NCBI GenBank assembly: GCA_013297775.1
Contig: JAAFIL010000014.1
Coordinates: forward strand, 1 to 64,000
Length of the DNA stretch: 64,000 nt
Source of the DNA: Bacteroidota bacterium
GTDB taxonomy: Bacteria; Bacteroidota; Bacteroidia; B-17B0; Aurantibacillaceae
Direction: 5' to 3'
In this document: positions 13,447 through 15,972 of the stretch, piece by piece
Numbering within the stretch: the first letter of the stretch is position 1
Layout of the letters: each line of letters starts with the position of its first letter
Notes under the pieces: generated by a model
Told to the model about the DNA's origin: nothing
Database searches by the model: none
Seen by the model: only the letters and a program-made list of their open reading frames with translations
Program-made: the position numbers and the translations under genes

Positions 13447-15198
13447 CTATTTGCGGAGGGTAATGTTAATGCCAACGCCTGTATAAAGCGCGTTAACGCT
13501 TAATTTGACAGGATAGTTGGCCGCATAAATTGATTGTGTGCCCAAGGCATACCCTTGGCGTACATATATCCCCGCCGAGCGCGATAATTGGTATTGTATT
13601 TTTAAAGCCCCATCGTATTGAATAAAAGGTGCTAATTCTTGTTTACTTTTTTGGTAGGTAAATTTATAGGGCCCTTCGTGAATCAAATTGTTAGAAGCCA
13701 TAGGCAAGCACAATTGCACTCCTAAAGAAGGTTCTACAATTAATTTACTGCGCAACATTCTAAACGCATAAGTAGCACGGATGGGAATGCACGTAAATCG
13801 GTAGGCACTCAGGTATTTGGTAGGACTAATGCTATCGCCATTAACTATAAATGGATAACGGATAGACGTGGTTTGGAAGGCACTATCGGTCATATTACCA
13901 AGCGAGTCGTAAACTAAACCAATAAATTGACGATTATAGTATGTATTGGGAATGTGTTTTAAGTAAATTGTATTCTCAAAACCAAAGAAGCGAATGCCAG
14001 ACTCTAAGCCAAAATTTCGGTAATGAAAGCCCAATAAAAAACTACCGCCTAAATTAAATTGAGTAGAAGCACTTATGCTTTGTGCTAATACTTCGTGGTA
14101 AGGTTTGTCTTTAAATTGAGGCAAATCAACACCCACGCTAACATTTTTATTGGCACTAATAACTTGTTCGATTTGATTGATTTGCATTTCGCTAGAGATG
14201 GTGATGTAATAAGGGTTGATGCGTTTCCGGTAATAGTCCTTATACCTATCCATGCGTGCTAACGAGTCGTTATAGGCCAACGTTGACTTTTCTAGTTCGC
14301 GCATGGGTGTTTTAACCGACGCAAAGGCCTTTCGCATAGGCAAATAATAACTCATTTTAGTTTCGTTGTCTTCTGTTACAGATGCCGCATTTAGCATTAA
14401 ATATTGTGGTGGCGTTGCATTGAGTAAGGGCGTGTTCCCGCTCGGTGTTAAATTATCTGCATCCGCTAGGGTTGGCGACTCTGGCGTTGTTTTAGAAGTT
14501 TCGGCAGCCTTGCTCGACTCTTCCTTTGCTTTAGAAGCAGTAGCGTTTAATGACTCTATCCCTTCGTTTGTGTTACGCCTTTTTTTAGCCTGAGGTGCCT
14601 TTCCAGACCCGCTTTTGTTTTTATTGCCGTTCGGTTTTTTTGTAGTTAAAACGGTTAGATCATTTATTTTTTCTGGAATAGAAGAATTGGTTTCATTTGT
14701 AAAATCAACTGGTTGTGAAGCCGTATTTTTTGCAGTTAGACGCAATGGATTAGAAGCAGCTCGGGTCGAAACCTTAACAGAATTATCTTGAGTTAATGAA
14801 GCATTTCTTTCAGTTATTTTTTCGGGTGTGGAAGAAGTAACCGGTATGGATGATGAATTTGTTTTAGAGGTATTAAAGGTTTCGTTGTTGGTAGAATTGG
14901 TAACGGACCTCAACGGCATAGACGTGGTGTTAGATTCGTTAAACGAACTGTTATTATTTCTGTTTTTTTCAGTTACTGTTTTGGGCGATGAAGAGTTTAT
15001 AAGAAATATCCCCGCCAATAGTGTAAGTAGTAATATGGCAACAAGTGCCCAACGTAAGGAACTTCTACCCGCGTTGCCACCTGCCTTTTGCGACAGATAA
15101 GCCTTTTGAACTTTATTAAACGTCAATTTAGATGGCTCTATTTCTAGATCATCCAATTGGCGCTTAATAAGCTCATCCATATTCCGATTGCTGCCCAT
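13447..15198 (-). CDS. Putative dual-membrane-spanning anti-sigma factor with C-terminal beta-barrel
   Basis: The 583-residue protein has four parts: a short cytoplasmic region (residues ~1-47, MDELIKRQLDDLEIEPSK), one inner-membrane helix (~49-67, ALVAILLLTLLAGIFLI), a ~260-residue Ser/Thr/Asn/Lys-rich low-complexity linker ending in a helical stretch, and a C-terminal ~255-residue region of alternating strands with terminal GVGINITLRK that looks like an outer-membrane barrel. This order matches the Dma family of dual-membrane anti-sigma factors known from Bacteroides. The gene overlaps the 3' end of the ECF sigma gene, which supports an anti-sigma role. The start may be ATG 15198 or ATG 15180. 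The barrel could alternatively be periplasmic. Confidence 0.7.
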   Translation of the reverse strand: MGSNRNMDELIKRQLDDLEIEPSKLTFNKVQKAYLSQKAGGNAGRSSLRWALVAILLLTLLAGIFLINSSSPKTVTEKNRNNNSSFNESNTTSMPLRSVTNSTNNETFNTSKTNSSSIPVTSSTPEKITERNASLTQDNSVKVSTRAASNPLRLTAKNTASQPVDFTNETNSSIPEKINDLTVLTTKKPNGNKNKSGSGKAPQAKKRRNTNEGIESLNATASKAKEESSKAAETSKTTPESPTLADADNLTPSGNTPLLNATPPQYLMLNAASVTEDNETKMSYYLPMRKAFASVKTPMRELEKSTLAYNDSLARMDRYKDYYRKRINPYYITISSEMQINQIEQVISANKNVSVGVDLPQFKDKPYHEVLAQSISASTQFNLGGSFLLGFHYRNFGLESGIRFFGFENTIYLKHIPNTYYNRQFIGLVYDSLGNMTDSAFQTTSIRYPFIVNGDSISPTKYLSAYRFTCIPIRATYAFRMLRSKLIVEPSLGVQLCLPMASNNLIHEGPYKFTYQKSKQELAPFIQYDGALKIQYQLSRSAGIYVRQGYALGTQSIYAANYPVKLSVNALYTGVGINITLRK

Positions 15199-15758
15199 TT
15201 CGTTTTTATTATTTCTTTATCTTTCTTCGTATTTACCAAGTCTATCAAAGCCTTACGTGCTCTGGTGTATTGCGAGCGACTTGTACTCTCTTCTATGCCT
15301 AATTTTTCGGCTATTTCTTTATGGCTAAACTCTTCCATAAGGTACATGTTTAAAATGGTGCGGTAACCCAAAGGCAAATCTTGAATACATTTAAGCAAAC
15401 GTTGTGCATCGGCCTCTACCATTAATTGCTGTTCCTTTTCGTCTTCCTCAACTTTGGTTAAACTAACTTGGTTAAGGCTATCGAATTGGTGTTTATTTTT
15501 TTCTTTTAACTGACTAAGCGCGGTGTTGGCGGCAATGCGTTTCATCCAGCCTTCAAAACTGCCTTCGCCTTTAAATTGATGTATGTTTAAGAAAATTTTA
15601 ATGAACGTTTCTTGCAGAGCGTCTTCGGCCTCGTCGCGGTCCTTAATGTATCGGCAACAAACCCCCAATAACTTAGGGGCATAACGTTTAAATAATTCGT
15701 TCTGCGCCCGTGCTTCTTCTTTTTTGCACCGCTCTATTATAGAATCTAATGTTTCCAA
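15144..15758 (-). CDS. ECF-type RNA polymerase sigma factor
   Basis: The 204-residue protein directs RNA polymerase to a regulon under control of its partner. Region 2 (~residues 18-90) includes RYIKDRDEAEDALQETFIKI and GSFEGWMKRIAANTALSQLK, and region 4 (~125-175) includes LPLGYRTILNMYLMEEFSHK and EIAEKLGIEESTSRSQYTRARK. The start is TTG 15758. An in-frame TAA two codons upstream leaves no other possibility before region 2. A terminator-like hairpin lies just upstream. The last ~30 residues run past region 4 and overlap the start of the anti-sigma gene by 55 bases, so the pair should be translationally coupled. Confidence 0.9.
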   Translation of the reverse strand: METLDSIIERCKKEEARAQNELFKRYAPKLLGVCCRYIKDRDEAEDALQETFIKIFLNIHQFKGEGSFEGWMKRIAANTALSQLKEKNKHQFDSLNQVSLTKVEEDEKEQQLMVEADAQRLLKCIQDLPLGYRTILNMYLMEEFSHKEIAEKLGIEESTSRSQYTRARKALIDLVNTKKDKEIIKTKWAAIGIWMSLLSANWMI

Positions 15759-15763
15759 AAATT

Positions 15764-15829
15764 AAAAAAGGCACACCCACCATCCCCTGCAAGTGTGCCT
15801 GTGACATAAAGTTATTAAAATTTTATGTC
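15764..15829 (-). promoter_or_regulatory. Tandem hairpins with U-tract in the sigma-factor leader
   Basis: Read on the minus strand: hairpin 1 has arms GACATAAA/TTTATGTC (15829-15803). Hairpin 2 has arms GGCACAC/GTGTGCC (15799-15770), followed by TTTTTT (15769-15764), and the TTG start codon comes 6 bases later. Hairpin 2 plus its T-run looks like an intrinsic terminator inside the 5' leader, and so a possible attenuator. No upstream minus-strand gene needs a terminator here. Confidence 0.4.
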
Positions 15830-15972
15830 GTATTCTTATATTAAAGACGATTTACTGCTTAAAACGCTGCATGTTTTTTCGAATTTTTTTGTAATCACTT
15901 GTTTTTCAGCATCATAAAATTAAATTAAATTTGGCAGCAGCTATAATTGTACCTTTACTTTTAACCGTTTGC

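Follow-up and report, generated by a model that had tools for sequence, protein, structure and literature searches.

The window analysed here is a 64,000-nucleotide stretch of DNA from a member of the Bacteroidota, and the locus of interest consists of two overlapping genes and their upstream region, all on the minus strand (to which all coordinates below refer). The first gene (15144-15758) starts with TTG and encodes a 204-aa ECF sigma factor containing regions 2 and 4, as identified by a Pfam search (Sigma70_r2, 5.6e-16; r4_2, 2.3e-15). The second gene (13447-15198) encodes a 583-aa protein, which was assigned as a putative Dma/Reo-type anti-sigma factor using ORFs, alignments, and AlphaFold models. 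The overlap of the ECF sigma gene by the second gene had been recorded in the initial annotation and was found as described; the two ORFs share 55 nt, and this overlap is kept in the orthologous locus of another genome (see below). The C-terminus of the sigma factor, encoded in the overlap (15144-15198), is a hydrophobic tail (WAAIGIWMSLLSANWMI), which is present in two relatives and missing from the locus L057; this tail could mediate a membrane contact or result from the overlap of the two reading frames. For the 583-aa protein, no match above chance was obtained in Pfam or NCBIfam, including the Pfam OMP_b-brl families PF13568 and PF13505 at the gathering cut-off, and its N-terminal segment matched none of the curated anti-sigma families in these two collections.

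The 583-aa partner appears to be composed of four segments and a short connecting helix. It had been annotated as having a short cytoplasmic part and one inner-membrane helix, and this organization was reproduced, with ~48 residues preceding a single helix at ~49-68. The cytoplasmic segment (residues 1-48; 15055-15198) is a putative sigma-binding domain with two predicted short helices, located at residues 4-16 and 27-39 in the full-length AlphaFold model, which was built from a four-sequence alignment and has low overall confidence (pLDDT 39). Residues 1-48 align in register with the N-terminal modules of 16 related partners. The inner-membrane helix (residues 49-68; 14995-15054) shows a hydropathy of 2.48 and corresponds to a helix at residues 48-67 in the model; because basic residues precede this single hydrophobic helix, an N-in orientation is predicted. 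The following Ser/Thr/Asn-rich linker (residues 69-298; 14305-14994) was defined by the model, its composition, and DNA identity: residues 68-299 are all coil with pLDDT values of about 25-31, and the linker shows the lowest DNA identity of the locus to the orthologue (31-49%). A disordered chain of ~230 residues would be amply long for crossing the periplasm. Between the linker and the C-terminal domain, a short helix (residues 300-324; 14227-14301) is predicted with low confidence in the models; it is missing from the alignment of the more distant relatives, and its sequence is found only in the window and the orthologue.

Among the segment lengths proposed in the initial annotation, that of the barrel (~255 residues, at about 329-583) was retained, whereas that of the linker (~260 residues) was revised to ~230. 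The very long Ser/Thr/Asn linker and the helical stalk had also been put forward as differences from Dma proteins. In the relatives, the linkers, whose boundaries are approximate estimates, are mostly ~100 to ~350 residues long with 17-43% S+T+N, one Bacteroidales member having a shorter one. The window linker is therefore long and S/T/N-rich compared with those of Bacteroidales, yet inside the range of the wider group, and it is a weak distinguishing feature because similar lengths and S+T+N contents are normal in the relatives. The stalk is likewise a weak difference, since it corresponds to a low-confidence helix with a sequence limited to the window and the orthologue.

The C-terminal domain (residues 329-583; 13450-14214) is predicted to form an eight-strand β-barrel. 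When residues 295-583 were modelled alone with AlphaFold, using an alignment of only 4 sequences, eight long strands were obtained with a pLDDT of 79 and a pTM of 0.66, the other four models having pLDDT values of 75, 62, 52, and 51. The best Foldseek matches to the barrel model were OmpA and NspA (3e-7 to 4e-6). VIA-align yielded a Z score of 17.8 and an rmsd of 2.5 Å over 170 residues with OmpA (9a2m) and a Z score of 17.0 over 154 residues with NspA (1p4t), and the model matches the membrane barrels OmpA, NspA, and OmpW across the entire domain. Structure prediction, which had been suggested earlier as a check of the C-terminal fold, thus returned a closed OmpA-like barrel and not a non-barrel fold. 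We regard the OmpA-like eight-strand barrel as a good prediction rather than an established fact. No aromatic residue is present at the C-terminus of the barrel. The invariant NGDS motif (residues 453-456) is located in the largest loop of the 295-583 model, which is predicted to be extracellular, and may be a site for sensing or modification.

ECF promoters are expected to contain two boxes at a fixed spacing, the second being CGTC or TGTC. A promoter-like element of this type, TGCAGCGTTTT-N-CGTC (15846-15871), precedes the sigma start codon by 112 nt and was identified from a motif shared with related loci. The motif, GCARY-N15-18-YGTC/CATY, was derived from ~10 loci and then fixed for a test on held-out loci. 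Of 26 related sigma genes, 18 are preceded by it (0.55 expected); with the pattern fixed, it was detected in 24 of 40 held-out loci (0.79 expected), the strict form occurring in five of the latter 40 (0.003 expected); these expectations come from mononucleotide shuffles, and related genomes are not independent. None of the 11 remaining ECF genes in the genome has the motif upstream. These results support the presence of one sigma group with a common promoter specificity, and the conserved promoter-like sequence suggests that the sigma/anti-sigma pair is probably autoregulated. A regulon search of the genome with this motif gave no other convincing promoter site, and hence no regulon is claimed. 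The sites obtained besides the sigma promoter were one intergenic at G000:C34:66981, one inside a coding sequence at C109:7454, and one in C121, and reversed-pattern controls gave about equal numbers of matches for the looser pattern. The intergenic copy (G000:C34:66981-67006, locus L097) is followed by no clear gene on the same strand and may represent the promoter of a sigma-dependent small RNA or a chance occurrence. At the related locus L088, the motif lies within a large inverted repeat in the region about 25-110 nt before the sigma gene, with a second copy in reversed orientation, which suggests that this sigma factor has promoters facing in both directions.

Between the promoter and the sigma start lies a conserved 92-nt leader (15759-15850), which is 98% identical over 90 nt to that of the orthologous locus in genome G027, whereas the surrounding DNA is about 31-87% identical, including the sigma gene at about 71-87%. 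The predicted fold of the leader (z -4.3) has two main hairpins, the first of which (GACATAAA ... TTTATGTC) is located at 15803-15829. The second (15769-15800) resembles an intrinsic terminator, with a stem of 12 pairs followed by a U tract (TTTTTAATTT) that ends about 10 nt ahead of the sigma start codon. Because the upstream gene is divergent, this hairpin is not the terminator of that gene. A similar hairpin occurs at the same place in L006, where an upstream gene ends nearby. Assignment of the leader to the Rfam small RNA BTnc201/MasB was rejected (26 bits, against a gathering cut-off of 105). Judging from its conservation and folding, the leader is a candidate attenuator, small RNA, or mRNA-stabilizing hairpin.

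The same-genus orthologue has a partner that is 51% identical over the full length and a sigma factor that is 86% identical, and it shares the architecture, the TTG-started sigma gene, and the flanking genes (for a DEAD-box helicase and a MacB-like permease). The existence of such an orthologue with the same architecture and neighbours in another genome indicates that the gene pair is not a chance arrangement. Two further full-length relatives (24%) have in common a sigma gene, a transmembrane (TM) helix, a low-complexity linker, and a conserved C-terminal domain. Since only 4-6 of the searched genomes of the genus and related taxa contain a recognizable copy, the sequence appears to diverge fast. 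A profile constructed from the four full-length members matched five more genes in the genus and family, in each case only through the N-terminus (E 4.5e-5 to 5.3e-4); all five are immediately preceded by an ECF sigma gene and encode a TM helix, a linker, and a long C-terminal part. No relatives were found in viral contigs, and no obvious second barrel partner was present in 17 ECF neighbourhoods of the same genome, selected by Pfam region 4 matches.

A sigma-based survey of 198 Bacteroidota genomes, restricted to top matches with E <= 1e-50, revealed the same architecture behind the sigma genes of L073-L076, L078, L081, L084, and L085. L077, L080, L082, and L083 show a split form consisting of the sigma gene, a gene for a 237-283-aa partner, and a separate gene, and L079 has a gene for a 281-aa partner after the sigma gene. 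The downstream gene of the split form mostly codes for a protein with a signal-like segment at its N-terminus and an end resembling that of an outer-membrane protein. The best matches in a plasmid collection were from Bacteroidales, with the sigma gene preceding a gene annotated as ‘porin family’ or ‘outer membrane beta-barrel’; one such sigma/barrel locus, in Bacteroides finegoldii, is adjoined by a divergent nigD-like gene. Three related partners (L078, L088, and L137) reached the Pfam cut-off for PF13568. In the 40 held-out loci, taken from a 395-genome sample, a partner gene was located within 181 nt of every sigma gene, and the partner mostly contained a similar short N-terminus and a TM helix. 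The design is thus widespread, nearly all of the nearest sigma relatives across Bacteroidia preceding the same N-terminal module and TM helix. The L087 partner carries a SPOR-like domain in its linker (E 8.5e-4, just under the cut-off), which could bind peptidoglycan.

Instead of a barrel, the partners of L140, L141, L147, L148, L153, L154, and L167 have at their end a T9SS type B sorting domain (CHU_C, PF13585; E 1e-12 to 5e-18), and some also contain a PKD domain. T9SS-ended partners were found in at least 12 of the 40 held-out loci and have the same N-terminal module and TM helix as the barrel forms; a PorP-like gene adjoining them was looked for, and none was seen. The use of different outer ends on a common anti-sigma chassis points to a sensor platform of modular construction.

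In a tree of 36 sigma factors, the window sigma factor grouped with those of barrel anti-sigma loci, including Bacteroidales loci, with support values of 98/93. Ten of the 11 other ECF sigma factors of the same genome fall outside this clade, and the eleventh (own_L045) joins it on a long, doubtful branch. The tree is supportive but not independent evidence, since the relatives were chosen by similarity; with the same caveat, the grouping with Bacteroidales barrel-anti-sigma loci and the shared promoter-like motif may point to the ECF21 group. A profile comparison with four Bacteroidales partners gave probabilities of 79% for the barrel and 21% for the N-terminus. When an HMM of the distant partners was run against the window and own-genome ORFs, the query ranked third of 419 with the N-terminus and fourth with the barrel, neither being significant, and therefore sequence homology to the Bacteroidales Dma proteins is not claimed. 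Membership in the Dma/Reo kind is supported by architecture, gene order, sigma phylogeny, and the promoter motif. The central proposal of the initial annotation, an ECF sigma factor paired with a one-polypeptide, two-membrane anti-sigma factor of the Dma design, was accordingly upheld: the predicted fold is a barrel, and gene order, topology, sigma phylogeny, and motif are in agreement with the published Dma/Reo group (PMC13088901, PMC9308784, PMC13114119).

In FecR/FecA-type cell-surface signalling and in the RseA/RseB system, several proteins relay the state of the outer membrane to an ECF sigma factor via an inner-membrane anti-sigma factor, whereas the window locus encodes one chain predicted to reach both membranes and has no TonB-dependent receptor beside it. 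Closer counterparts are found in Bacteroides thetaiotaomicron, in which Dma1 and Dma2 restrain Das1 and Das2, respectively (PMC13088901). The window pair shares with Dma1/Das1 and Dma2/Das2 an N-terminal anti-sigma segment, one TM helix, a long disordered tether, a C-terminal barrel, and an adjacent ECF sigma gene, but it differs from them by the gene overlap and the leader terminator and lacks a nigD or PUL context. Compared with the Bacteroidales examples, which are shorter (349-423 aa), the barrel and N-terminal sequences of the window protein have diverged almost beyond recognition. Dma3 of B. thetaiotaomicron also spans two membranes, but its sigma domain is on the same polypeptide (PMC13088901), whereas the window sigma factor is encoded by a separate gene. 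In Phocaeicola vulgatus and Bacteroides fragilis, Reo is likewise a cytoplasm-to-surface anti-sigma factor encoded downstream of its sigma gene; it restrains EcfO and is induced by envelope-acting toxins (PMC9308784, PMC13114119), the Reo-associated sigma gene being induced 33-fold under toxin stress (PMC9308784). This strong induction of the EcfO-Reo operon by envelope stress is consistent with the autoregulatory promoter motif of the window. A nigD-linked context has been described for EcfO-Reo (PMC13114119), whereas no nigD regulon was seen next to the window pair. The deletion phenotypes of Dma1, Dma2, and Reo demonstrate the anti-sigma role of the design (PMC13088901, PMC9308784). The window pair is a strongly diverged new member of this known design and not a new kind of system.

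We consider it very likely that the window pair is a Dma/Reo-type outer-membrane stress switch, in which the sigma factor is released from a tethered two-membrane anti-sigma factor. The 583-aa protein would be held in the inner membrane by its single helix and in the outer membrane by the OmpA-like barrel, with the ~230-residue tether between them in the periplasm, and its ~48 cytoplasmic residues would keep the ECF sigma factor inactive. Seated in the outer membrane, the barrel would sense its state and the tether would relay it: disturbance of the outer membrane or the barrel, or misassembly of the barrel, would lead to alteration or cleavage of the tether or the inner-membrane segment and thus free the sigma factor. 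Once free, the sigma factor would use the ECF-type promoter to transcribe its own operon, and its targets would presumably also include envelope genes. What the analysis itself shows is the gene pair, its topology features, the predicted barrel, the conserved design, and the promoter-like motif in common; for the window, we infer sigma binding, the location of the barrel, the signal, and the release step.

In an alternative reading, the protein would still be an anti-sigma factor, but its C-terminal domain would stay in the periplasm as a β domain, or the chain would be cut after the inner-membrane helix and the barrel and the anti-sigma part would act as separate polypeptides, as the split relatives (L077, L080, L082, and L083), the lack of a C-terminal aromatic residue in the window barrel, and the ready cleavage of low-complexity linkers would allow. 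Such an arrangement appears improbable, however, because the model fits membrane barrels over its whole length, L078, L088, and L137 belong to a Pfam outer-membrane barrel family, and many lineages retain the fused form. That the 583-aa product is an envelope protein co-transcribed with the sigma factor but exerting no control over it, the overlap merely reflecting operon packing, would fit an N-terminal segment that matches no curated anti-sigma family, but it is very improbable in view of the partner found behind every related sigma gene in the 40 held-out loci, the mostly similar short N-termini and changing C-terminal ends, which point to a sigma-bound N-terminus, and the anti-sigma function demonstrated in Bacteroides and Phocaeicola for proteins of this design (PMC13088901, PMC9308784).

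As a tentative addition to the stress switch, the system may possess a built-in RNA arm, in which transcription from its own ECF promoter would yield a short leader RNA that ends at the terminator and lies inside the conserved 92-nt block. If this is the case, envelope stress would produce a small RNA first, and the sigma and anti-sigma factors would follow only via read-through. This would be somewhat similar to the sigmaE-dependent small RNAs of enterobacteria but located in the leader of the sigma operon itself.

The Dma/Reo design, which has so far been studied experimentally in gut Bacteroides and Phocaeicola, is now recognized in a distant lineage of Bacteroidota and in many families of Bacteroidia. 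The group-wide promoter motif makes autoregulation and regulons directly testable. If the proposed mechanism is true, a single disordered chain extending from the outer membrane to RNA polymerase would be a common solution in the phylum.
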